Shown: positions 12,181-60,830 of the stretch, piece after piece
How the letters are laid out: every line of letters starts with the position of its first letter
How positions within the stretch are numbered: position 1 is the first letter of the stretch
Origin: Panopea generosa
Taxonomy: Eukaryota > Mollusca > Bivalvia > Adapedonta > Hiatellidae
DNA length: 64,000 nt
Assembly: GCA_029582155.1 (NCBI GenBank)
Contig: CM055908.1
Coordinates: forward strand, 17,669,906 to 17,733,905
Reading direction: 5' to 3'
The notes under the pieces: generated by a model
What the model saw: the letters and a program-made list of their open reading frames with translations, nothing else
Database searches by the model: none
Told to the model about the DNA's origin: nothing
Position numbers and translations under genes: made by a program

Positions 12181-12828
12181 TACTCAAATTTACACACTGG
12201 TCAGTTCATAGTTCATTGCTCTCATTTTGATAAATGGTTTATTGTTACTTAATTTATGGATTTCACTTTGGAGACAGCAAAGGTGTTGAGTAGAGACATA
12301 CGTGCATTTAATTTTTCACAACCAAACCAGGCTACTAAGCAAAATCATAAGCAAAATCGTAATAAAATATTAAGACAGTTTTTTTACCCATTCAGACGAA
12401 TCTTGAAAAATAATCTTAAAATCTGTATTCTGTATTCTATTCTATGATTTATTCTTACTTTTCTTAGTGTAAGCATAACCCTTACAAAGACGTTTACGAG
12501 GGACTTTTAACTAGACTACTAGAGTGACCTCCCTTGGCGATTGTTGTTTATTTTCTGCACGGAGAATTAAAAAACTTAAAAGTGAAATTAATAACATTTT
12601 CAAGTTACAGGTATTCTGAAGACTTCATGTATGACATTTTGAATATACTTTTTATCTACGTATGCCATAAATTGTGATAAAAAACAGTACTTTGCTTTTG
12701 TGAGAGCCAATTCAATTTTACATAGTGAAATAGTGACCAATCACCCGTATCAAGCGGCTATAGATTATATAAGTTATTTATTGACACTACTAGACACTAC
12801 TACGTTCAAAAATTTAGTGAGGCCCGTC

Positions 12829-14073
12829 ATGGGTGTTTCAATTGAAATGTGGCGCTGTAGAATTGGGTGCTTTTCTCAGCCTGTAAAATATAAAACAGCA
12901 CTGCAGGTATTGATTGTAAGTCGTTCCTGTGTATCTCTGAGTATACGGATTGTATTATTCCTTCTATTGGCTATGCACTGTGTAGAACAGAATCCCGGAC
13001 CTAATGGGGGTAATCCGCGCGGTGTTGGTGGACGTCGTGGTAAAACTAGAGGCCAGGCAAGAGACTCTGTTAGCGCTCAAAGAGGTCCTGATTATTTCTC
13101 CCAGTCGTCTGATACGCCACAAACACGAAGGTCTACACGTCTTTTTAATGATCAGCCAGCATTAAGCTCATGGCTTAGAACCCCACAACCGCCGTCCAGT
13201 CCAAACTCACTGAACGCTAGTTCCTTACAACGTTCGCCTGAATGCAGATCTAATAATCCCTCGAGTGCAAGCAGTATGGATCTAGGCTATGAACAAATAG
13301 AGCCACAATTGGATCATGATATAACCGTTCGACCTAGTCAAAATGAAAACCTATCAATGACTATACTACTTGATATACAAAAAAACTGTCAGAATTTAAA
13401 TAAAAAGTTTGATAAATTGGAAAAGTCAGTCAATGACCTTAAAAAAGAAAATAAAAAGCTACATGACCAAAATTTAAAACTAACCAAAACTGTTAATACC
13501 CTCGCAGTCAACGTCTCGGAATTGGAATTATCTGCGAAAGAAACATCATCTAAACTAGACCAATTAGAAGGTCAATCAAGAAGACAAAATTTAAAGTTCT
13601 TTGATATCGAGGAATCTAATAATGAAACTTGGGAACAATCAGAGGAAAAAATAAGAAATTATATTAAAACTGAACTTGAGATCGACGAACCCAATATGAG
13701 TATTGAGCGTGCCCATCGACTTCCAGGGAAAAATAAACCACGGCCTATAATCGTTAAATTTTCGTTCTATAAGGACAAAGATCGTATCATCAAGCGTTAT
13801 CGTGAAATACGTAAATCTGTGCGAGAAGCGCGGCCTAGTGATAACGTCGATAGCGTCAACATCGGAGCAACAGCAGGTGAATTATCCCGTGTGCGAGTGA
13901 GTGAGGACTTCCCAGACAGGGTCAGGAAAATGAGATCTGCGTTGATTCCATTCCTAAAGGAATCTATTGATAGTGGAAAAAATGCATTTCTGCGTTTTGA
14001 TAAACTCGTTGTCAATGGCAACGCATACGTTTACGATGAGACGAGAGAACGTCCTGTTCCGGCGTTTAAGTAA
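12829..14073 (+). CDS. LINE ORF1: 2A-like peptide, basic region, coiled coil and L1-ORF1p-like RNA-binding domain
   Basis: The frame is open from 12643 but the first ATG is at 12829, giving about 415 aa; positions here count from that Met. Residues about 24-49 are hydrophobic (LQVLIVS ... IVLFLLLAM) and lead into HCVEQNPGP (residues 50-58), a 2A-like motif. A Gly/Arg-rich basic stretch (GGNPRGVGGRRGKTRG) follows, then a Ser/Pro-rich linker. A coiled coil with heptads spans about 177-250 (IQKNCQNLNKKFDKLEKSV). The C-terminal region, about 250-330, carries RRQNLKFFDI, ETWEQSEEKI, IERAHRLPG and RPIIVKFSFYKDKD, matching the L1 ORF1p-type (Transposase_22-like) RNA-binding core. Such proteins coat element RNA as trimers. 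If 2A skips, a 57-aa hydrophobic peptide and a ~358-aa RNA-binding protein result. No CCHC knuckle or esterase domain was seen. Confidence 0.85.
   Translation: MGVSIEMWRCRIGCFSQPVKYKTALQVLIVSRSCVSLSIRIVLFLLLAMHCVEQNPGPNGGNPRGVGGRRGKTRGQARDSVSAQRGPDYFSQSSDTPQTRRSTRLFNDQPALSSWLRTPQPPSSPNSLNASSLQRSPECRSNNPSSASSMDLGYEQIEPQLDHDITVRPSQNENLSMTILLDIQKNCQNLNKKFDKLEKSVNDLKKENKKLHDQNLKLTKTVNTLAVNVSELELSAKETSSKLDQLEGQSRRQNLKFFDIEESNNETWEQSEEKIRNYIKTELEIDEPNMSIERAHRLPGKNKPRPIIVKFSFYKDKDRIIKRYREIRKSVREARPSDNVDSVNIGATAGELSRVRVSEDFPDRVRKMRSALIPFLKESIDSGKNAFLRFDKLVVNGNAYVYDETRERPVPAFK
12943..13002 (+). promoter_or_regulatory. 2A-like translational recoding site within ORF1
   Basis: It encodes a Leu-rich hydrophobic run followed by CVEQNPGP. 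The 2A consensus is D(V/I)ExNPGP, where the ribosome skips the Gly-Pro bond and releases the upstream peptide. Here V, E, N, P, G, P are present but the Asp is Cys. N-terminal 2A sequences in ORF1 are documented for APE-type LINEs of several animals. Activity of this divergent form is untested. Confidence 0.7.
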
Positions 14074-17000
14074 CGCGTTGGCCAAAGCCCCTGTGTTCAT
14101 GATAAAACGTTTACTTACAATGAACAGTTTCCAGACTCCAATATTGTTAACTGTTCTGAAAATGTTTCTATCATCCATAATGAATTGTTGTCTGAAACGC
14201 GTCTCTGCGATACCCAATTGAATAATGATGATATTCATTCAGAATTTGTTAATAATGCTGGGGGTAATATTCATACAAAGCTACTTTATCTTAATATATG
14301 CAGTTGGAATATCGAGGGTCTTTTAAAATATCAAAATGACATTGAATTTCAATCGTATGTTTCATCCTTTGAAATAATTGGTTTATTTGAGACGTGGACT
14401 GTTCAAGATGATGCGATTGATCTACCCGGTTACACTCATTTCGGTTATTCTCGGCCGAAAAAGAAGTCAGCAAACCGAGGTTCTGGAGGTGTTTCAGTAT
14501 ATGTTAAAGACTTTTTGATAAAAGATGGACTTGTTCAACGTATTTTTAATACATTCACAGAATGTGTTGTTTTATTGTTTAATAGTTCATTGTTCCGTAA
14601 TGTAAATGATATTGTCTTTATTTTTACATATGTGTCGCCTGAAAACTCACCTATTTATGATGAAAATGACAATAATGGTATTGAAATACTTAATAATAAG
14701 ATTAATAATATTATCGCTGAATACCCTAATGCAGAATTGTTCTTGTCTGGTGATCTTAATTCTAGAATTAAAGATTTTAATGATTACATTCCAGATGATG
14801 ATATTTCATATATATTTGGCAATGATGTTGACTACCCGTCTGACAATTTTTCGACTCCAAGAAAATCTAAAGATGAAAATTATAATCGTTTTGGTTTGTC
14901 ACTAATTGAGTTATGTTGTACGTATGATGTTCATACTTTAAATGGCCGTCTATTTAGTGATATGGATGGTAATTTTACATGTTTTGCCAACAATGGGGCA
15001 AGCATTGTTGACTATATGATAGCTTCATCCAGCTTATTTAAGTTTATTACTGATTTTAAAATTGGGGATAAGGATTACTCTGTACATTTCCCCCTTCATT
15101 GTCAGTTTTGTTTTAAATCCTGTTCATATAACCAGTCCTTTAATAATATTGATAGTTCAAATTTGCGTACTTGGCAAAAATATAAATGGAAAGAGGAGTT
15201 AAAAGATGATTTTTATGTTAAGTTTTGTGATAATTTCCGTTCCTTTAATGAAATAATAAGTAACCGTAATGATCGTTCTCTCAGTTCATATATACCCGAT
15301 TTTATTGATGTTTTTAAAAAGGCCGGCGATAATATGAAATTAAAGTCTAATTGTAAACAATACAGTTCAACCCAACCTTCCTGGTGGGATCATGACTGTA
15401 ATTCTGCTAAAGTTGACAAATCACGAGCACTACGATATTTTAGAATTACGAATGATAGAAAAGACCTTATTACATATAAAACAAAAAGGAATCATTTTAA
15501 ATCTATTTGTCTGAACAAAAAGGCTCTATTAGCTAAGAAAAAACGGAACGAATTAGTTAGTTCTCGAAAAAATTCTAAAGTGTTTTGGAAAACATTAAAA
15601 GGAAATTGTAATAAGCAAAACAATGATATTACACCAGAAAAGTGGCACGATTATTTTAAAAGTCTATTTATTTCAAGAGAAAATGACGATGATGAGCATA
15701 ACGATAATATCTTTGAAAATACACAATACGATTCTAGCAGCCTAAACGAACCTATATATAATCAAGAAATAATCGATAGTATACGTCATTTAAAATCTAA
15801 CCGTTCTGGAGGCCCTGACGGAGTATGTATAGAAATGTATAAGTATACACTTAATGACATATTGCCGTTTTTAAATCAACTTTTTAATGAAATATTTGAT
15901 TCAGGTTCGTTTCCTGAAAATTGGAGCGAAAGCATTATAACACCATTACATAAAAAAGGTCCAGTAAATGACCCAAATAACTATCGAGGCATTTCACTTA
16001 TCGATTCCCTATGTAAAATATTCTGTCACATATTAAGTAATAGATTAACTAAATGGTGCGATACTTTTGATGTCATTGATGAGTCACAGGCAGGATTTAG
16101 GAAAAAGTATACCACTATAGATAACATATTTACTTTAATGGCTTTAGGACAAAAGTATCTTTCTAAGAGAAAAGGACGTTTTTATTGTATATTTGTTGAT
16201 TTTGCTAAAGCATTTGATAGTATTCAACACCAAAAACTATGGAATGCTTTTACAAGAAAAGGTGTCGATGGAAAGTTCTTAATAATTTTACAGTCTATGT
16301 ATAGCAAATTAAAATCATGTGTTAAGGTTAATAATGGATTAACTGAGTTTTTCCCATGTAACATTGGAACCAGGCAAGGCTGTGTGGCCAGCCCCATAAT
16401 CTTTTCTGTGTTTATAAATGATTTAGTTACATTTCTACATTCTAAATGTGATCGTGGTATATTTGTTTCTGATGATATTAATGAGTTAGTAGCCTTAATG
16501 TTTGCTGATGATGTTTCAAGTTTCTCAGATACTGTTGTACATCTTCAAAGACAAATTAATTATATTGAACAATTCTGTGCATCTGTTGATATGAAAATTA
16601 ATCTCGATAAATCAAAAATTGTTGTTTTTAGAAATGGAGGCATCGTCAAGCTTACAGAAAAGTGGACATATTGTGGAGAAACTATAGATGTTGTCAAATT
16701 TTATAAATATTTAGGTGTTTATTTCACGCCAAAATTGCTATGGTCAAAAACGCAAGAAATGTTGGCATTGCAAGGTATTAAGTCTGTTGCCTGTATATTT
16801 AGATTTCAACGTAAATTTGGACATCTAAATTCAGTAGATATGTTTAAAGTATTTGATGCTATGGTCAAACCTATACTTTGTTATGGCTCTGAAATCTGGG
16901 GATACAAGTATGTTGAAAAAATTGAAAAAGTGCAAATCAAATTCTGTAAACAGTATTGTAATTTATCACAAAATACATCTGATATTCTAGCGCTAGGAGA

Positions 17001-17712
17001 ATGCGGAAGATTACCGTTATGTATTACTTATATTCCCAACTGTGTAAAATTTTGGCTAAGAATTATACGTATGGAAAACCATAGATACCCTAAACAATGT
17101 TATAAAATGCTAAAACAATTAGATGAAGCAGGCAGAAGAACTTGGGCTAGTCATATTAAAGAATTACTTTTTACATATGGATTTGGATATGCTTGGCTTG
17201 CCCAAGATGTTGGAAATGACATAAATTTTATTCATTTATTTAAAACACGCATTAAAGACTGCTATTTACAAAGATGGATCGCAGGTCTAAATGATTCTCC
17301 TAAATCTCTGCATTATAAACATTTTAAATCTCATCTGTATTCAGAATCATACTTAGACATTGATTTATCATATATTTTAAGAAAAACGTTGTCAAATTTT
17401 CGTTGTTCGACCCATACTTTAATGATCGAGAAGGGAAGACACTTATCAATAGATAAAAATTTAAGATTCTGTCCTATATGTATGAAAAATAATATTTCTG
17501 TAGTCGAAGATGAGTTTCACTTCTTCTTTGAATGTAATGAGTATGAACATTTTAGACAAACTTTTTTCAAATCTAATTGGTTAAGAAATAGATCGCTTAA
17601 CATGTATTACATAATATTTAGCTTGAAAGATGAGAAAAGCATTGTCAGTATTGCTAGATATCTTTTAAATGCTTTTAAAAGAAGAAAAGAAATTCTAGAT
17701 TTGCCCATTTAA
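14074..17712 (+). CDS. LINE ORF2: AP-type endonuclease plus reverse transcriptase
   Basis: This frame opens directly after the ORF1 stop (TAA, 14071-14073) in the same frame and runs 1212 codons. There is no ATG until 14962, inside the endonuclease, so initiation is unusual. Counting from 14185: the endonuclease (about 33-305) has LNICSWN, FETW (E69), SGDLN (D190, N192), VDYM (D276) and SVHFPL (H301; the usual SDH Asp is Val). The RT (about 520-850) has RSGGPDG, NNYRGISL, QAGFRKK, motif A FVDFAKAFD (D672), motif B GTRQGCVASP and motif C FADD (D775, D776). A post-RT region with YGSEIWGY and LGECGRLPL ends in a zinc-knuckle-like C-x2-C-x12-H-x4-C (1096-1117). Together these nick the target and prime reverse transcription. 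Frame and catalytic RT residues are intact. Confidence 0.93.
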   Translation, partial: RVGQSPCVHDKTFTYNEQFPDSNIVNCSENVSIIHNELLSETRLCDTQLNNDDIHSEFVNNAGGNIHTKLLYLNICSWNIEGLLKYQNDIEFQSYVSSFEIIGLFETWTVQDDAIDLPGYTHFGYSRPKKKSANRGSGGVSVYVKDFLIKDGLVQRIFNTFTECVVLLFNSSLFRNVNDIVFIFTYVSPENSPIYDENDNNGIEILNNKINNIIAEYPNAELFLSGDLNSRIKDFNDYIPDDDISYIFGNDVDYPSDNFSTPRKSKDENYNRFGLSLIELCCTYDVHTLNGRLFSDMDGNFTCFANNGASIVDYMIASSSLFKFITDFKIGDKDYSVHFPLHCQFCFKSCSYNQSFNNIDSSNLRTWQKYKWKEELKDDFYVKFCDNFRSFNEIISNRNDRSLSSYIPDFIDVFKKAGDNMKLKSNCKQYSSTQPSWWDHDCNSAKVDKSRALRYFRITNDRKDLITYKTKRNHFKSICLNKKALLAKKKRNELVSSRKNSKVFWKTLKGNCNKQNNDITPEKWHDYFKSLFISRENDDDEHNDNIFENTQYDSSSLNEPIYNQEIIDSIRHLKSNRSGGPDGVCIEMYKYTLNDILPFLNQLFNEIFDSGSFPENWSESIITPLHKKGPVNDPNNYRGISLIDSLCKIFCHILSNRLTKWCDTFDVIDESQAGFRKKYTTIDNIFTLMALGQKYLSKRKGRFYCIFVDFAKAFDSIQHQKLWNAFTRKGVDGKFLIILQSMYSKLKSCVKVNNGLTEFFPCNIGTRQGCVASPIIFSVFINDLVTFLHSKCDRGIFVSDDINELVALMFADDVSSFSDTVVHLQRQINYIEQFCASVDMKINLDKSKIVVFRNGGIVKLTEKWTYCGETIDVVKFYKYLGVYFTPKLLWSKTQEMLALQGIKSVACIFRFQRKFGHLNSVDMFKVFDAMVKPILCYGSEIWGYKYVEKIEKVQIKFCKQYCNLSQNTSDILALGECGRLPLCITYIPNCVKFWLRIIRMENHRYPKQCYKMLKQLDEAGRRTWASHIKELLFTYGFGYAWLAQDVGNDINFIHLFKTRIKDCYLQRWIAGLNDSPKSLHYKHFKSHLYSESYLDIDLSYILRKTLSNFRCSTHTLMIEKGRHLSIDKNLRFCPICMKNNISVVEDEFHFFFECNEYEHFRQTFFKSNWLRNRSLNMYYIIFSLKDEKSIVSIARYLLNAFKRRKEILDLPI

Positions 17713-18086
17713 AGAAATATTAACAAGAGTAAACTACTGTATTATTAATTAGACAGTATAAATAGTTTCACTTTATTTTGAATATAAATATTCATGATAT
17801 GATTTAATAGTCTTGTTCATTATAGTGTTAATTTTGGATTTATATATAGCTACATTTATCTCAAATCATATATCTTCAAAAATATATGTCACATCTGTTA
17901 CATTATAAAACTTTTGAAATGCTTAAACCTGAAATGATCTAATACAAATGCTATTATTTTTGGATTTATATGGCATGTTATAAGCTTATATTCACTTTAA
18001 TATGTGAATTCTGTAATACTGACTTGTATAAATGTATAATATTTAATTTGTGCCACTCTATATGATGTATTTACATGTTGTATTTT

Positions 18087-18150
18087 GGGCCGGAGGCCTA
18101 TATTACTTAATAAAATATGTCTATGTCTATGTCTATGTCTATGTCTATGT
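18087..18150 (+). other. LINE 3' terminus with hexamer tail
   Basis: GGCCGGAGGCC (inverted repeat) is followed by TATATTACTTAATAAAATA, containing an AATAAA signal, and five tandem TATGTC units. This short-repeat tail replaces poly(A) and marks the end used for reverse-transcription priming. Confidence 0.75.
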
Positions 18151-18231
18151 TTAAAAATAACTTAAATTGTTTAGTGAACCATTTCATAGACTTTTATATA
18201 ATTATGTAAAATACGCGTAATATATCTACAT

Positions 18232-18415
18232 GAAGGGGATTTCGACTAACTCTCTATTTTGACAATTGGGATTTTGAGCACACATTGAGTGGATTTTGAC
18301 TAACTCTCTATTTTGAAAATTGGGATTTTGAGCACCCATTGAGTGTATTTGACAATTCCTTTATTTGGCTATAGGGATTTTTATCACCCTGTTAATTTTG
18401 ACCTCTAGGTGCGGT
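18232..18415. repeat. 57-bp direct duplication and related subrepeats (possible right arm)
   Basis: GGATTTCGACTAACTCTC with TTGGGATTTTGAGCAC is duplicated at about 18238 and 18294, followed by GGGATTTTTATCACC and AATTTTGACCTC. The reverse complement resembles the subrepeats at 12040-12180. Confidence 0.6.
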
Positions 18416-27186: not shown

Positions 27187-30100
27187 GCACGTGGACGGCG
27201 CTACATAAAGACAGGGTGCGTAAATATATTCGATAAATAGTTACTACACGTGAACGGTGCAACATAAAGGTAGTGTGTGTAAAAATAGTAGATAAATAGT
27301 AACTTCATGTGAACGGTGCTTCATAAAGGTAGGGTGTGTAAATATAGTCGATAAATAGTAACTACACGTGAACGGTGCAACATAAAGGTAATGTGTGTAA
27401 ATATAGTAGATAAATAGTAACTACACGTGAACAGTGCTACATAAAGGCAGGGTGTGTAAATACAGTAGATAAATAGTAACTACACGTGAATGGCGCTACA
27501 TAAAGACAGGGTGCGTTAACATAGTCGATAAATAGTAAGTACACGTGAACGGTACAACATAAAGGTAGTGTGTGTAAATATAGTAGATAAATAGTAACTA
27601 CATGTTAACGGTGCTACAAAAAGGTAGGGTGTGTAAATACAGTAGATAAATAGTAACTACACGTGAACGGTGCTACATAAAGACAGGGTGCGTTAACATA
27701 GTCGATAAATAGTAAGTACACGTGAACGGTACAACATAAAGGTAGTGTGTGTAAATATAGTAGATAAATAGTAACTACATGTTAACGGTGCTACATAAAG
27801 GTAGGGTGTGTAAATATAGTAGATAAATAGCAACTACACGTGAACGGCGCTACATAAAGTTATGTGTGTAAATAGGGTAGGTAAATAGTAACTACACGTG
27901 GACGGCGCTACATAAAGACAGGGTGCGTTAACATAGTCGATAAATAGTAAGTACACGTTAACGGTACAACATAAAGGTAGTGTGTGTAAATATAGTAGAT
28001 AAATAGTAACTACATGTGAACGGTGTTACATAAAGGTAGGGTGTGTAAATATAGTCGATAAATAGCAACTACACGTGAACGGCGCTACATAAAGTTATGT
28101 GTGTAAATAGGGTAGGTAAATAGTAACTACACGTGAAGGGTGCAACATAAAGGAAGTGTGTGTAAATGCAGTAGATAAAAAGTAACTACATGTGAACGTA
28201 GTTACATAAAGGTAGTGTGTGTAAATATAGTAGATAAATAGTAACTACATGTGAACGGTGCTACATAAAGGTAGGGTGTGTAAATATAGTCGATAAATAG
28301 CAACTACACGTGAACGGCGCTACATAAAGTTGTGTGTGCAAATAGGGTAGGTAAATAGTAACTACACGTGAACGGTGCAACATAAAGGAAGTGTGTACAA
28401 ATACAGTAGATAAATAATAACTACAAGTGAACAGTGCAACATAAAGGAAGTGTGTATAAATATAGTAGATAAATAGTAACTACACGTGAAGGATGCAACA
28501 TAAAGTTGTGTGTGCAAATAGGGTAGATAAAAAGTAACTACACGTGAGCGGTGAAACATAAAGGATGTGTGTGCAAATATAGTAGATAGATAATAAATAC
28601 ACGTGAACGGTGCAACATAAAGGAAGTGCGTACAATTACAGTAGATAAATAGTAACAACACGTGAACGGCGCTACATAAAGTTGTGTGTGCAAAAAGGGT
28701 AGGTAAATAGTAACTACACGTGAACGGTGCAACATAAAGGAAGTGTGTGCAAATACAGTAGATAAATAGCAACTACACGTGAACGGTGAAACATAAAGGA
28801 AGTGTGTATAAATATAATAGTTAAATAGTAACTACACGTGAAGGATGCAACATAAAATTGTGTGTGCAAATAGGGTAGATAAATAGTAACTACACGTGAA
28901 CAGTGAAACATAAAGGAAGTGTGTGCAAATATAGTAGATAAATAATAAATACACGTGAACGGTGCAACATAAAGGAAGTGTGTGTAAATACAGTAGATAA
29001 ATAATAACGACACATGAACGGTGCAACATAAAAGAAGTGTGTGTAAATATAGTAGATAAATAATATTTACACGTGAACAGTGCAACATTAAGGAAGTGTG
29101 TGTAAATATAGTCAATAAATAGTAACAACACGTGAAGGGTGCAACATAAAGGAAGTGTGTGTAAATGCAGTAGATAAATAGTAACTACACGTGAACGGTG
29201 CAACATAAAGGTAGTTTGTGCAAATACAGTAGATACATAGAAACTACACGTGAACGGTGCAACATAAAGGAAGTGTGTGCAAATACAGTAGATAAATAGT
29301 AACTACACGTGAAGGATGCAACATAAAAGAAGTGTGTGCAAATACAATGGATGCATAGTAACTACACGTGAACGGCGCAACGTAATGGAAGTGTGTGTAG
29401 ACACACTCGATAAATAGTAACTACATGTGAACGGTACACAAATAGGACGTGTGTGCAAGTACAGTCGATAAGAAGTAACTATACGTGAACGTTGCAACGT
29501 AATGGAAGTGTGTGTAGACACAGTCGATAAATAGCAAGTACACGTGAATGGTACACAAATAGGACGTGTGTGCAAATACAGTCGATAAGTAGTGACTACA
29601 CGTGAACGGTGCAACGTAATGAAGTGTGTGTAAATACAGTCGATAAATAGTAACTACACGTTAACGGTGCACAAATAGGACGTGTGTGCAAATACAGTAG
29701 ATAAATAGTAACTTCACGTGAACGGCGCAACATAAAGGAAGTGTGTGTAAATAAAGTAGATGAATAATAACTACACTTGAACGGTGCAACATAAATGTCG
29801 TGTTTGTAAATATAGTAGATAAATAGTAACTACACGTGAACGGTGCAACATAAAAAAAATTGTGTAAATATAGTAGATAAATAGTAACTAAAGGTGAACT
29901 GTGCGTCATAAAAGAAGTGTGTGTAAATACAGTAGATAAATAGAACTACATGTGAAGTGTGCAACATAAAGGAAGTGTGTGTAAATACAGTAAATAATAA
30001 GTAACTACACGTGAAGGATTTAACATAAAGGAAGTGTGTGCAAACACAGTAGATAAATAGTAACTACATGTGAATTGTGCAACATAAAGGAAGTGTGTGT

Positions 30101-30690
30101 AAATATAGTAGATAAATAGTAACTACACGTGAACAGTGCTACATAAAGGCAGGGTGTGTAAATACAGTAGATAAATAGTAACTACACGTGAACGGTGCAA
30201 CATAAAGGTAGTGTGTGCAAATACAGTAGATAAATAGGAACTACACGTGAACGGTGCAACATAAAGGAAGTGTGTGTAAATACAGTAGATAAATAGGAAC
30301 TACACGTGAACGGTGCAACATAAAAGTTGTGTGTGCAAATACAGTAAATAAATAGCAACTACACGTGAACGGTGCAACATAAAGGAAGTGTGTGTAAATA
30401 CAGTAGAAACATGGTAACTACACGTGAACGGTGCAACATAAAGGTAGTGTGTGTTAATACAGTAGATACATAGCAACTACACGTGAACGATGCAACATAA
30501 AGGTAGTGTGTGCAAATACAGTAGATAAATAGTAACTACACGTGAACGGTGCAACGTAATGAAAGTGTGTGCAAATACAGTAGATAAATAGTAACGACGC
30601 GTGATAGGTGCAGCATAAATGAAGTGTTTGTAAATATAGTAGATAAATAGTAACTACACGTGAAAGGTGCAACAAAAAAGACGTGTGTGG
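27187..30690. repeat. 59-bp satellite array, about 59 copies
   Basis: The unit contains CATAAAGG(A/T)AGTGTGTG, AAATA(C/T)AGTAGATAAATAG and TAACTACACGTGAACGGTGC. Most units keep a CACGTG hexamer. Higher-order structure is visible: a unit starting CTACATAAAGACAGGGTGCG recurs near 27496, 27672 and 27909, and an ACATAAAGTTATGTGTG variant near 27850 and 28085. In the distal part a family lacking 'AGG' (CACAAATAGGACGTGTG) alternates with normal units (29430-29690). The unit is not a multiple of 3, so the minus-strand open frames with repeating LHRSRVVTIYLLYLHT peptides cycle through all three phases. These are by-products, not genes. Confidence 0.97.
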
Positions 30691-38999: not shown

Positions 39000-39460
39000 T
39001 TTCAAGTGGGACAGTAACTCGAGATGTGCTAGAGCCGGGTTAGATAAACAACAACGAATCAGTAGTTATACTAGACTACGTTAAAATAAAAACTATGTCA
39101 TGGGTTTATTACGTTCCTGCTCTGTACCTGATTACAAGTTTTATTAATTAAAACATACTTTTTTATTAATTAACTTTGAGAAATAAATCATTTTAATCGT
39201 TAAATGAAATCCAAATATAAAATAATGTGTCGTTAAATAAATAAAGATGCTCTAGCCATGCTAACGTCTCATACAGATATTTCAGAACCAACTTTAAATA
39301 CGCATTTTGAAATAACCTTCATCAGATTTTATATTCTTTAACCATGATTTACGTTAATAATTAACGAAATAACAACAACAACATGTTTTTGTTTAAATGG
39401 GATTGTTTCCCTATAACGTTTTTTTTAACGAAGGCTTGTTTTGTTCTCAATCACTTCATA
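39000..39460. other. No recognisable feature
   Basis: Nothing supported. Confidence 0.35.
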
Positions 39461-40592
39461 ATATATCTGATTTATTATCGAAGCTAATTATTTATTTTAT
39501 CTGATTGATTATACATCTGATTATCATTATATATCTGATTTATAACTATGTCTGATTTATAATTATGTCTAATCTATCATTATGTCTGATTTATAACTAT
39601 GTCTCATTTATAATTATGTCTGATTTATCATTATATCTGATTTATAACTATGTCTGATTTATAATTATGTCTGATTTATTATTATATCTGATTAATCATT
39701 ATATCTGATTTATAATTATATCTGATTTATAACTATGTCTAATTTATAATTATATCTGATTTATCATTATGTTTGATTTATAACTATGTCTGATTTATAA
39801 TTATGTCTGATTTATAATTATATCTGATTTATCATTATATCTGATTAATAATTATATCTGATTTATAACTATGTCTGATTTATAATTACATCTGATTTAT
39901 CATTATATCTGATTTATCATTATATCTGATTTATAATTATATCTGATTTATCATTATATCTAATTTATAACTATGTCTGATTTATAATTATGTCTGATTT
40001 ATCATTATATCTAATTTATAACTATGTCTGATTTATAATTATGTCTGAATTATACGTCTGATTTATCATTATATCTCATTTATAACTATGTCTGATTTAT
40101 AATTATGTCTGAATTATAAGTCTGATTTATAATTATATCTGATTTATAACTATGTCTGATTTATAATTATGTCTGATTTATCATTATATCTGATTTATAA
40201 CTGTGTCTGATTTATAATTATATCTGATATATAACTATGTCTGATTTATAATTATGTCTGATTTATCATTATATCTGATTTATAACTATGTCTGATTTAT
40301 AATTATGTCTGAATTATCATTATATCTGATTTATAACTATGTCTGATTTATAATTATGTCTGATTTATAATTATATCTGATTTATAACTATGTCTGATTG
40401 ATAATTATGTCTGATTTATAATTATATCTGATTTATCATTATATCTGATTTATAATTATATCTGATTTATAATTATGTCTGATTTATAATTATATCTGAT
40501 TTATCATTATATCTGATTTATTATTATTATTATATCTGATTTATCATTATATCTGATTTATTATTTTATCTGACTGATTATTATATCTGACA
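39461..40592. repeat. 17-bp AT-rich minisatellite, about 66 copies
   Basis: The unit TCTGATTTATAA(T/C)TAT(G/A) is repeated with variants at two positions (ATAACTATG, ATAATTATG, ATCATTATA). Variants are interspersed in recurring two- or three-unit patterns rather than at random. Stops (TAA, TGA) occur in most frames. Confidence 0.97.
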
Positions 40593-49749: not shown

Positions 49750-50180
49750 CTCTATAACTCTCGCTACATTGGTTATAATTTGTTAAATCATGTATATAGT
49801 ATAAGATAGTGATATTTGCATGACAACGATTATATCATAGTCAAATTTCAATGAATACCACTTTTGTATATTTTATATATATTCTATACCTCCAGCTCAG
49901 GAGTGGTACACGACTCGGCAAAGGACTATTAAAATATGCGGTAATTGTAAGCCACTAACATTTGAACAAAATAAATACGTAAATTTGCAAATGCCTTATT
50001 GTCACCAAAAATAGATAAATTACTTAGTAGATCTGTGGTTAAAGAGAACAACTTCGCTTTGAAAGATCACAAAAATGCGTGACAACCAACAGCGACAAGC
50101 TTCTCTCCAATTGGACCTAATTTTGTTAATGTTTGGAACATTTTATGCACAGTATTACTTGCCATGTATCAATGACACTC
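49750..50180. other. No recognisable feature
   Basis: Nothing supported. Confidence 0.3.
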
Positions 50181-50181
50181 C

Positions 50182-50696
50182 GTCCAACGTATACGTTACA
50201 TAAACGGCTACTACGTAGCATGTTCGGTGTCAACTACACACAATAAACCGGTACTTCCTGTCGTTTTTATGCACATGGTTGGGCAGTGAGGTAAGAAAAT
50301 CCCATTATTTTCATATTAATATTTCGTTTACAAATCAAAGATATAGACGACACGAGCGGCATTGTATAAAAGTTTCAAGCGGGCATGTGTTTTTGAATGG
50401 AACATGGCCGTTTACTCAAACATTCGAGAAAAGTGACGGTTTGAAACACTTTCAGATTGAAAACGCGTCATTTACAGCTCAATTTATTATTTCGGAAGCA
50501 TTTCTGGGACTACTTTTCGTGTTTTATATTTGTTTTATATTCCAATATACTAAATTATTTCTGTAGAAAAGTACAAGTTGAGGTTATAAGGGAGCTAAAC
50601 GTCAAAATTTGCATAATACGTAGCATAAGTAGGTACCTCGTGTATATTACGCTATGTAAGTCGGTGCAACGTGTCATAACAATAACATGAAATAAT
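50182..50696 (+). repeat. About 515-bp dispersed repeat, copy A of an inverted pair
   Basis: Runs from CCAACGTATACGTTACATAA to ATAACATGAAATAATG and matches the reverse complement of 53229-53753 closely throughout. Inside, an open frame encodes GTWPFTQTFEKSDGLKHFQI, aligned in the same frame in copy B (GTWPFPQTFEKNDGLNHFQI). The frame here opens at TTG, not ATG. Terminal inverted repeats are not convincing. The family is unknown to me; it may be a mobile element or a segmental inverted duplication. Confidence 0.75.
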
Positions 50697-53228: not shown

Positions 53229-53753
53229 ATTATTTCATGTTATTTAAATACCGTTAATTGAAACAATGACTCGACTTATGTAGCGTACAATATACGAGGC
53301 ACCTACTTATGCTACGTGCTAAGCAAATTTTGGCGTTTAGGAAATCTTATAATGTCAACTCGTATGTTTTTACAGACATAATTTGGTTTATTCATACATA
53401 AAACAAATGTAAAACCCATAAAATAGTTCAGAAATGCTTCCGAAGTAATAAATTGAGCTATAAATGACGTGTTTTCAATCTGAAAGTGGTTCAAACCGTC
53501 ATTTTTCTCGAATGTTTGAGGAAACGGCCATGTCCCCAATAAAAAAACACATGCCCGCTTGACACTTTAATACAATGCCGCTCGTATCGGCTTTATCTTT
53601 GATTTGTAATCGAAATATTAATATGAAAATAATGGGATTTTCTTACCTCACGGCCAAACCACGTGCATAAAAACAACAGGAAGTACCGGTTTATTGTGTG
53701 TAGTTGACACCGAACACGCGACGTAGTAGCCGTTTATGTAACGTATACGTTGG
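53229..53753 (-). repeat. About 525-bp dispersed repeat, copy B (inverted)
   Basis: The reverse complement of copy A: CCAACGTATACGTTACATAA at the right end, ACAATAAACCGGTACTTCCTG, GAAACCGT-region frame, and CATTATTTCATGTTATTT at the left end. The minus-strand frame at 53312-53539 starts with ATG just before GTWPF and differs from copy A mostly by single substitutions. Confidence 0.75.
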
Positions 53754-53934
53754 ATAGGGTGAATGACGTATATTTGTTTGTAGTTAAGATAAATATACAT
53801 GGGCCATGTTAGGCTTAATACAAGAATAAAACTATTTAAACTATAATTACACAACAATCATAGTAATCGGATTAACAGGGTTATAAGTCACAATCAATTA
53901 GTACAATATATAATAATTTAAGAGATTAAATACT

Positions 53935-56999: not shown

Positions 57000-57540
57000 G
57001 CATTTATTAGTTGATGATGCATGTCAGTGAATATATATTTGTTATTGACTTATTTGATTTAATATTTGATAGCTGGCAAAATTATCCGTTTAAATCAATG
57101 AGCGCAACGAAGAAAGAAAACAAGCATATTGAGTTTTATTCCTTCTGTAAATGAGAAAAAATGTAATATGCAATACCACCCATGTCCACACATGTGTAAG
57201 CAATATTCTGTTTTCGTGCTAAATGAACTTTAAGGAGACATAGAACAAGAAATATCTGTCTCATTTTGCAATACAAGCCTTACGTCAGTAATTGTATAAA
57301 ACTGCTGTAAAACTGCTGTCAATAGCATTATTTGTAAATTAATATACGATAAGGAACAATTAAAAAATGCTGACATGAAATTTATCAAAATGTGTTATAT
57401 TAATTTGCTGCTTTTTGATACGTCGTCAATAATTGTCATTGTCATGGAGACAGTTATTGAAATTTCATTATGGTAAGCAATATGGAGAAAAGCAGTTATC
57501 ATCTACACAAAATCTCATTAACTTTATAACAGTATAGTCT
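57000..57540. other. No recognisable feature
   Basis: Nothing supported. Confidence 0.35.
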
Positions 57541-60440
57541 CTGGAATATCAACACAAAAAGTTTTTTATAATATTATATTTACTGGAATATTTATATGTA
57601 TAAACCGTCATTTAAAACAGTATATTCACTTGAATATCTACACAAACGATTATTTATGATAGTATATTCACTTGAATATCAACAAAAAATATTTAAAATA
57701 TTATTTTCAATGGAATATTTATATGCATAAACCGTCATTTAAAACAGTATATTCACTTGAATATCTACACAAACGATTATTTATGATAGTATATTCACTT
57801 GAATATCAACAAAAAATATTTAAAATATTATTTTCAATGGAATATTTATATGCATAAACCGTCATTTAAAACAGTATATTCACTTGAATATCTACACAAA
57901 CGATTATTTATGATAGAATATTCACTTGAATATCAACAAAAAATATTTAAAATATCATTTTCAATGGAATATCCACACAAACTATCATTTATAATAGTAT
58001 ATTCACTGGAATATCTACACAAACAGTTATTTATGATAATATATTCAATGGAATATCAACACAAACTGTTATTTGTAATAGTATACTCACTGGAATATCT
58101 ACAAAAACTGTCATTTATAATAGTATATCCACTGATATATCAACACAAACTCTCATTTGTAATAGTATATTCAATATAATATCAACACAAACTATCATTT
58201 GTAATAGTATATTCACTGGAATATCTACGCAAACTATCATTTATAATAGTATATTCACTGGAATATCTACACAAGCTGTTATTTATGATAATATATTCAA
58301 TGGAATATCAACACAAACTGTCATTTATAATAGTAAATTCACTGGAATATCTACAAACTGTCATTTATAATAGTATATCCACTGGATTATCAATACAAAC
58401 TATCATTTGTAATAGTATATTCACTGGAATATCTATACAAACTATAATTTATAATAGTATATTAACTGAAATATCTACACAAACAGTTATTTATGATAAT
58501 ATATTTAATGGAATATCAACACAAACTGTCATTTATAAAAGTACATGTATATTTAGTCGAATATCAACACAAACTGTCATTTGTAATAGTATATTCAATA
58601 GAATATCAACACAAACTATCATCTGTAATAGTATATTCACTGGAATATCTGCACAAACTGTCATTTATAATAATATATTGACTGGAATATCTACATACAC
58701 AAACTGTCATTTCACAGTAATATCTACACACACTGACATTTATAATAGTATATTCACTTGAATATCAACACAAACTATCATTAATTATAGTATATTCACT
58801 GGAATATCTACACAAACAGTCATTTATAATGGTACATTCAATGGAATATCTACACAAACAGTTATTTATGATAAAATATTCAATGGAATATCAACACAAA
58901 CTTTCATTTATAATAGTACATGTATATTCACTCGAATATCAACACAAACTGTCATTTGTAATAGTATATTCACTGGAAAATCTACACCAGCTGTCATTTA
59001 TAATAGAACATTCACTGGAATATCAACACAAACAGTTATTTATAATAATATATTCACTGGAATATCTACACAAACAGTTATTTATGATAATATATTCAAT
59101 GGAATATCAACACAAACTGTCATTTATAATAGTATATGTATATACACTCGAATATCAACACAAACTGTCATTTGTAATAGTATATTCAATAGAATATTAA
59201 CACAAACTATCATTGTTATAGTATATTCACTGGAATATCTACACAAACTGTCATTTATAATAATATATTGACTGGAATATCTACATACACAAACTGTCAT
59301 TTCACAGTAATATCTACACAAATTGTCATTTATAATAGTATATTCACTGGAATATCAACACAAACTGTCAATTAAAATAATATATTCACTGGAATATCTA
59401 CACAAACAGTCATTTATAATATTTTATTCACTGGAATATCAACACAAACTGTCATTTTTAATAGTACATGTATATTCACTCGAATGTCAACACAAACTGT
59501 CCTTTGTTATAGTATATTCACTGGAATATCTACACAAACTGTCATTTATAATAGAACATTCACTGGAATATCTACACCAACTGTCATTTAGAATAGTATA
59601 TTCACTGAAATATCAACATAAACTGTCATTTATAATAGTTTATTAACTGGAATATCAACACAAACTGTCATTTATAATAGTATATTCACTGGTATATCTA
59701 CACAAACTGTCATTTATAATAGTTTATTCACTTGAATATCAACACAAACTGTGATTTATAATAGTATATCCACTGGAATATCAACACAAACTCTCATTTT
59801 AATAGTATATCCACTGGAATATCTGCACAAACTGTCATTTATAATAATATATTGACTGGAATATCTACATAAAGAAACTGTCATTTCACAGTAATATCTA
59901 CACAAACTGTCATTTATAATAGTATATTCATTGGAACATCAACACAAACTGTTACATTTAGTAATATATTCACTGGAATATCAACACAAACTGTCATTTA
60001 TAATAATGTATTCACTGGAATATCTACACAAACAGTCATTTTTAATATTTTATTCACTGGAATATCTACACCAACTGTCATTTGTAATTGTACATTCACT
60101 GGAATATCTACACCAACTGTCATTTATAATAGTTTATTAACTGGAATATCAACATAAACTGTCATTTATAATAGTGTATATAATTATGTATCTACATACA
60201 CAAACTGTCATTTCACAGCAATATCTACACAATCTGTCATTTATAATAGTGTATTCACTGGCATATCAACACAAACTCTCATTTATGATAGTATATTCAC
60301 TGCAATATCTACACAAACAGTCAATTACAATATTTTATTCAATGGAATATCTATACCAACTGTCATTTATGATAGTATATTAACTGGAATATCTGCACCA
60401 ACTGTCATTTATTATAGTATATTCACTGGAATATTCTTTT
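57541..60440. repeat. 42-bp satellite array, about 69 copies
   Basis: The unit is TATATTCACTGGAATATCTA, CACAAACTGTCATTTATAATAG. Since 42 is divisible by 3, one frame stays open over many units and gives a 14-residue YSLEYQHKLSFIIV-type repeat. The start shows a 127-bp higher-order unit (ATGCATAAACCG-type at about 57596, 57723, 57850). Variants with CATACACAAACTG and TTTCACAG recur near 58690, 59290, 59870 and 60190, indicating longer-range duplication. Confidence 0.97.
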
Positions 60441-60564
60441 ATAGGCACTCATTAGTTATTGTAACTTGGTCTGAACTATGTTTTGAAGCGTATACTATGT
60501 TTAAGTAGTGACAATTACAGTTTAATGTAATAATGTAAGAATAAAATATATATAGAAAGTTGAA
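60441..60564. other. Non-repeat interruption of the 42-bp array
   Basis: About 125 bp unrelated to the unit, with ATTAGTTATTGTAACTTGG and a TAGTGACAATTACAG-containing segment, after which the array resumes. Confidence 0.8.
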
Positions 60565-60830
60565 ACAATATCTACATACACAAACTGTCATTTCACTGGA
60601 ATATCTACACAAACTGTCATTTATAATAGTTTATTCACTGAAATATCTACACAAACTGTCATTTATAATAGTGTATTCACTATAATATCTACACAAACTG
60701 TCATTTATAATAGTTTATTCATTGAAATATCTACACAAACTGTCATTTATAATAGTATATTCACTTGACTATCTACACAGACTCTCATTTATGAGAGTAT
60801 ATTCACTGATATACCAGCCATAAAAGCAGA
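60565..60830. repeat. 42-bp satellite array, second block, about 6 copies
   Basis: The same unit as 57541-60440 resumes with CTACATACACAAACTGTCAT and ends in degraded units. Confidence 0.95.

Follow-up and report, generated by a model that had tools for sequence, protein, structure and literature searches.

A Conserved In-Frame Stop Codon Between ORF1 and ORF2 Suggests Stop-Codon Readthrough in LINE Families of Panopea generosa

Introduction

There is no single answer to how long interspersed elements (LINEs) make their scarce ORF2 protein, with one form or another of reinitiation assumed for both LINE-1 and SART1. In retroviral gag-pol readthrough, a single in-frame stop, often UAG, stands between the structural protein and the polymerase that follows it, with a signal located 3' of the stop. 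Here we describe a LINE of the bivalve Panopea generosa in which the two open reading frames (ORFs) share one frame and are separated by a single TAA. The element is found in a 64,000-nucleotide stretch of contig CM055908.1 (assembly GCA_029582155.1, positions 17,669,906 to 17,733,905), and this whole stretch, as analysed here, is referred to as the window. The LINE family to which the window copy belongs is called family A, and all of the element's features given below lie on the + strand in window coordinates. From the sequence of its junction, we consider it probable that programmed stop-codon readthrough yields a minor ORF1-ORF2 fusion in this family.

The element resembles mammalian LINE-1 in its reverse transcriptase (RT), for which LINE-1 is the closest among solved structures, in an ORF1 protein (ORF1p) that is perhaps of the same type (the match is weak), and in having ORF2 close behind ORF1. 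However, the two ORFs of mammalian LINE-1 are separated by a 63-nt spacer and its ORF2 has an AUG, as given in the portion of PMC5972666 that deals with it, whereas family A has a single stop, a shared frame, and no AUG. SART1 is likewise a bicistronic LINE whose ORF2 is tied to the stop of ORF1, and the same portion of that source describes for it a stop and restart that overlap at one site, with a structure downstream (PMC5972666). In contrast, family A has no AUG overlapping the ORF1 stop (the junction reads TAACG) and no structure shared across families. The APE-type LINEs that bear a 2A peptide carry a 2A-like NPGP near the ORF1 N-terminus, per the relevant part of PMC4981915, as do family A and the two related families called C and D below; 2A skipping needs no stop codon, however, and leaves the stop between ORF1 and ORF2 unexplained.

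Readthrough was proposed earlier for the Paramecium LINE Group 3, in which ORF1 and ORF2 lie in one frame as they do in family A (PMC5405496, in the section on these elements). That group belongs to a ciliate, forms a distinct clade according to its authors, and has no conserved 3' context described in the same section of PMC5405496. Searches of open-licence PubMed Central turned up no account of animal LINE families that share in-frame stops together with a conserved 3' context, and descriptions of single families may exist in subscription papers or Repbase notes; the excerpts of PMC2861651, PMC11203168, and PMC2881922 that were available contain nothing on this point.

Results

In the window copy, the ORF1 frame ends at an in-frame TAA (14071-14073), after which the same frame is open from 14074 to 17712 as a 1212 aa ORF2 frame with its own stop at 17710-17712 (TAA). 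The linker between the ORF1 stop and the endonuclease (EN) domain (14074-14283, by frame analysis) is open and contains no in-frame ATG, and all seven ATGs within 14074-14290 sit in frame +1. The first in-frame ATG of ORF2 (14962-14964, codon 297) lies inside EN, downstream of the motifs NICSWNIEGL (14293), FETW (14386), and GDLN (14749), so that a start at this codon would lose the first catalytic motifs of EN. An earlier note on this DNA had described precisely this arrangement, with ORF2 continuing in the ORF1 frame after one TAA, the first in-frame ATG inside EN, and the linker ATGs out of frame, and its coordinates were confirmed. Random sequence of the linker's composition leaves 72 codons open in 0.6% of trials, and 296 codons without an ATG have a probability of 0.0055 at the Met frequency of the remaining ORF2; the lack of an ATG in the 73-codon linker has a probability of 0.28 and is unremarkable by itself.

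Comparison among genomic copies is the more powerful test. The region 13950-14300 was used as the query of a DNA search against the element's own genome (1.47 Gb, 39 contigs), and 40 of 78 candidates were scored. All 40 matched, one of them being the window itself, which left 39 other copies for comparison. The junction codon is TAA in 39/39, and the comparison of copies proposed by the earlier note thus turned up no sense codon at this position and no in-frame ATG within 14074-14290 in any of the 39. The codon at 14962 is ATG in 36 copies and TTG in the other three, and a private in-frame ATG further in, within EN, was seen in 3/39. Additional in-frame stops are scattered across 17 of the 39 copies; both ORFs are covered in 22, four of which are undisturbed except for the TAA.

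These counts bear on the choice, left by the same note, between recoding or unusual initiation on the one hand and a recent mutation on the other, in which the TAA would have split one long ORF in the window copy or its subfamily and the parents would carry a sense codon. A single substitution would suffice for such a split and the flanking frame is open, but TAA is present in every other copy compared and TAG or TAA occupies the matching place in eight more families (see below). The recent-mutation explanation is refuted for the copies compared and in our estimation is virtually certain to be wrong, while the other arm of the choice, recoding or unusual initiation, is supported.

Divergence and variant sets were computed on 38 sequences, to which the window copy was added and from which L021 and L031 were removed as duplicates. 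Between pairs of copies, ORF2 diverges by 1.0% on average, and the window copy and its nearest relative are 0.06% apart, which indicates that family A is young and that the TAA form is the form that spread. With the linker excluded, variants found in at least three copies comprise 30 nonsynonymous and 30 synonymous changes versus 424 and 152 for variants found in one or two copies, pointing to protein selection on the lineages that were copied and to neutral decay thereafter. Shared stops in the linker are absent from the ORF2 frame, with two in frame +1 and one in frame +2, and no local depletion of variants at the junction was seen among the young copies. By these comparisons, the TAA at 14071 is best read as a functional, evolutionarily kept stop of a young LINE family.

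To place family A among its relatives, two further searches of the genome were used. A protein search with 14074-15120 returned 119 matches (116 of 2659 candidates scored), among them families C and D, whose EN is approximately 53% and 49% identical to that of A and whose ORF2s are long, as well as older family A copies and relics designated family B; one match at 48% (C16:19694350) was left out of the family sample. A pattern search that targeted the start of EN and took no account of the junction gave 180 places (0 in the reversed control), and families F, G, H, J, K, M, I, and N were drawn from the places listed. The sample thus holds twelve LINE families including A. At least one copy shows an open frame, then exactly one stop, then EN in nine of the twelve (A, C, D, F, G, H, J, K, and M), and families B, I, and N yielded relic copies only. 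Families C, D, F, G, J, K, and M carry TAG as the stop and A carries TAA, while H has one TAA copy and one TAG copy. TGA is found at the junction in none of the nine families; relic N and L058, a broken copy of J, have it as their nearest in-frame stop. Counted in codons from the stop to the EN tryptophan, the distance is 77 in A, 25 in C, 22 in D, 17 in M, 16 in F, 14 in K, 12 in J, and 11 in both G and H, but as these distances were taken to the nearest in-frame stop, their whole-codon spacing is no evidence and lends readthrough no support. The evidential point is that ORF1's own frame runs into the stop.

With regard to that point, families C (L048 and L049) and D (L050 and L051, the latter interrupted upstream) have the same layout as A, with a 2A-like peptide, ORF1, an in-frame TAG, and ORF2. 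In at least one copy of each of F, G, H, J, K, and M, the frame stays open 5' of the stop as far as the sequence reaches. A profile of ORF1 built from A, C, and D was run on the three frames of the other families' junctions, and it matched in the EN frame in both copies of family H (L057, E 1.6e-10; L065, E 1.5e-4), in two of three copies of family G (L063 and L064, E 5.8e-6), and weakly in one of three copies of family J (L067, E 0.029). The upstream frame is thus recognisable as ORF1 in six families (A, C, D, G, H, and, weakly, J), and an in-frame ORF past the stop, as readthrough would call for, is conserved among the relatives, with F, K, and M counted by open frame only. A more distant LINE copy of the same genome (L074, with an ORF2 of 1286 aa) carries an open frame that terminates where EN begins, the two being in different frames, and the ORF1 profile did not match the upstream frame of this one copy; as a single control, L074 apparently has overlapping ORFs in different frames, which is suggestive only.

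Eight of the nine families have no in-frame ATG before EN; in family C, one lies five codons upstream of the EN tryptophan. This matters for the proposal of a separate ORF2 RNA, which would arise from an internal promoter or splicing, would start past the stop, and would leave the frame relation inherited but unused. An ATG directly before EN in families B and C would suit such an RNA, as would the weak promoter activity reported at the gag-pol junction of Tca2 (PMC7175516, in the pages on that junction). However, the general lack of such an ATG speaks against it, and a frame relation that is not used should tend to vanish as linker lengths shift, so we judge this explanation improbable.

The sequence immediately 3' of the stop is where the families agree. 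In the window, this post-stop context is CGC GTT GGC CAA AGC (14074-14088), summarised from a ten-family comparison as roughly stop-N6-GGY-CAA-RGC. Read as codons from the stop onward, family A has CGC GTT GGC CAA AGC CCC, C has GAA GCG GGC CAA GGC ACA, D has GAC AAC GGT CAA GGC CCA, F has CAT GAA GGC CAA GGT CCG, K has GAG GAT GGT CAA GGC CCA, M has GAA AGC GGC CGA GGC CCA, and J has GGG CAC GGA GAA GGT CAT. The best 9-nt window 3' of the stop has a mean pairwise identity of 0.60 versus 0.29 in the 36 nt before the stop (ten families, including the B relic), and 0/5000 codon-order permutations reach 0.60, although the permutation ignores shared descent. With B and H dropped, identity rises to 0.69, a value reached by 0/10000 permutations. 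From about 19 nt past the stop, identity drops to roughly the level seen before it. The short 3' context of the stop is conserved and its surroundings are not, and the conservation is weaker in B, G, and H. That the stop, the frame, and the 3' neighbourhood have outlasted the divergence of protein and linker argues that the junction has a function.

Two explanations other than readthrough by an RNA signal bear directly on this context. The patch is also similar as a peptide (GQSP, GQGT, GQGP, GHGP, and GRGP), with codons that are ordinary for the element, and these amino-acid likenesses across families would be expected if it were kept as a protein motif (approximately G-Q-G-P) at the ORF2 N-terminus, the stop being merely leaky. 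We regard this non-exclusive variant of readthrough as possible though somewhat doubtful; the patch stays fixed 6 nt from the stop in families of differing linker length, and translation of the first post-stop codons is still required. The patch may act as RNA or as peptide, and both are compatible with readthrough.

The second is termination-coupled, AUG-independent reinitiation, in which ribosomes would finish at the stop, remain on the RNA, and restart at or near the conserved site to give a free ORF2 protein, a route already put forward for LINE-1 of mammals. The passages of PMC5972666 concerned with LINE-1 and SART1 attribute forms of termination-reinitiation to them, and AUG-independent initiation is deemed likelier for LINE-1 ORF2 in the corresponding part of PMC5009743. 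In family A and its relatives, though, reinitiation would work with ORF2 in any frame (a prior of 1 in 3 for frame 0), none of the conserved codons is a near-AUG codon, and the sequence before the stop is not conserved, its identity being the 0.29 over 36 nt given above. We consider reinitiation unlikely, though it is the main rival to readthrough.

Predicted RNA folding gave no common signal. The first 117 nt after the stop of family A fold better than most windows, as only one of 123 others is lower and that one overlaps, but a conserved stem was rejected as the shared signal because C and D do not fold well. Family A shares with retroviral gag-pol the single in-frame stop, the order of the proteins, and a candidate signal 3' of the stop, but no conserved stem was found, where pseudoknots were not modelled.

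The remaining features of the element are as follows. ORF1 (12829-14073) begins at ATG 12829, the first ATG in a frame that is open over 12643-14073, and ends with the TAA at 14071-14073. Its layout is a hydrophobic N-terminus, the peptide VEQNPGP, a coiled coil (judged by eye), and an RNA recognition motif and C-terminal domain (RRM/CTD). The C-terminal domain gave a weak match to LINE-1 ORF1p (E 0.77), and the RRM/CTD is probably of the LINE-1 ORF1p type. The 2A-like stretch (12946-13002, with NPGP at 12991) sits behind a hydrophobic, signal-like leader and reads CVEQNPGP, without the usual D, while the full D(V/I)ExNPGP motif is present in the same part of ORF1 in families C (GDIEANPGP) and D (GDVETNPGP).

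The ORF2 frame encodes EN, RT, and a C-terminal Cys/His motif. The probable APE-type EN domain (14284-15120) was assigned from a weak profile match together with motifs: Exo_endo_phos_2 was retrieved at E 6.5e-4 and 20.0 bits, below the curated Pfam cut-off of 27.4, APE1-type chains aligned weakly from query residue 8 (E 0.15 and weaker), and motifs of the APE-type family are present within 14284-15120. A structure model of 14074-15120 had a pLDDT of 38.6, too poor for use. The EN motif usually found further along the domain is SDH; positions 15079-15087 read SVH in the window copy and in 38 of the 39 other copies, and SVY in the remaining one, such that an active-site variant, SVH, is fixed in an active-looking family. 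The RT domain (RVT_1, 15949-16719) was detected at E 1.3e-34, and its best solved structural relative is LINE-1 ORF2p (E 4e-37).

The element as a whole is a full-length non-LTR (long terminal repeat) retrotransposon at 12520-18150, its 3' end lying inside a (TATGTC)n repeat that closes it at 18116-18150. Full-length copies of the family start mostly at 12516-12522 and end near 18125-18156. They lack LTRs, and the 3' end region is common to the 39 other copies, many of which are 5'-truncated at differing points; the RT and this LTR-less copy structure with a shared 3' end are those of an APE-type LINE. Rfam and tRNA scans of the window gave no match, nor did scans of viral contigs for relatives of the element. 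Directly downstream of the LINE's 3' end, a 54-bp unit is repeated approximately twice (18237-18350).

Elsewhere in the window, long tandem arrays occupy 27188-30689 (59-bp unit), 39458-40590 (17-bp unit), and 57523-60808 (42-bp unit). An inverted repeat of 219 nt with 93% complementarity (50176-50394 and 53543-53761, 3.1 kb apart) has further inner inverted arms and is possibly a DNA transposon. In the genome at large, contigs C3 and C12 hold many near-equal LINE copies with ORF2 frames of 1231-1246 aa (150 of 2317 candidates scored), a clustering that suggests site-specific insertion into arrays.

Discussion

Under programmed readthrough, most ribosomes would terminate at the TAA at 14071 and leave ORF1p as the major product. 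A minority would read through it, aided by the short conserved stretch starting 6 nt past the stop, and would continue via the linker into EN and RT to give an ORF1p-ORF2p fusion at a low ratio, much as retroviruses make gag and gag-pol. With one assumption, readthrough at a leaky stop would account for all features of the junction, and we tentatively favour it over non-AUG initiation and reinitiation. We infer the occurrence of readthrough, its level, the inserted amino acid, and the role of the fusion as the working ORF2 protein.

Several observations weigh against this interpretation. In the linker (14074-14280), shared variants comprise seven nonsynonymous changes and one synonymous change; the counts are small, and the linker's amino acids are under no visible purifying selection. 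The 3' motif fits poorly in G and H (GAC NNA TGT GAG AGT) and in B (GAC GTC GGC CGG CAT). No conserved stem 3' of the stop was found, with z approximately -2 in A, +1.3 in C and D, and mixed values in F, G, H, K, and M. As mentioned above, an in-frame ATG stands just before EN in C and in relic family B. A fixed restart point, as reinitiation would provide, would likewise account for a motif that stands at a constant distance from the stop, for the in-frame linkers, and for the context. In the yeast element Tca2, which has a stop between gag and pol, the reporter test described in the pertinent section of PMC7175516 gave no readthrough.

The family comparison carries points of the same kind. 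Each family besides A is represented by one to three copies. The ORF1 profile matched in no frame of F, K, and M, which have 23, 61, and 58 open codons 5' of the stop, respectively, and the upstream frame of these three would be ORF1 on the grounds of the open frame and the post-stop patch. ORF1 lies out of the EN frame in one G copy (L056), two J copies (L058 and L066), and a B relic (L054). Given that L058 is one base short just 3' of the stop relative to L066 and L067, and that L066 is without a stretch 5' of the stop, we read the out-of-frame G and J copies and the B relic as broken copies.

We would like to note that the wider claim is put forward with less assurance than that for family A. 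By a slight preference, we take the sequences to suggest that an entire group of active LINE families within a single genome uses gag-pol-like readthrough to express EN and RT, with a short linear signal 3' of UAG or UAA and a 2A-like peptide near the front of the same ORF. If this is true, two kinds of recoding, readthrough and the 2A-like peptide, would operate on a single LINE RNA. Families that keep one stop, one frame, and a shared 3' context would offer a simple, testable readthrough system in a LINE, and would suggest that LINEs and retroviruses have arrived at the same means of setting the ratio of an RNA-binding protein to a polymerase. Should the fusion act as the functional protein, ORF1p would be physically linked to EN and RT from the outset.

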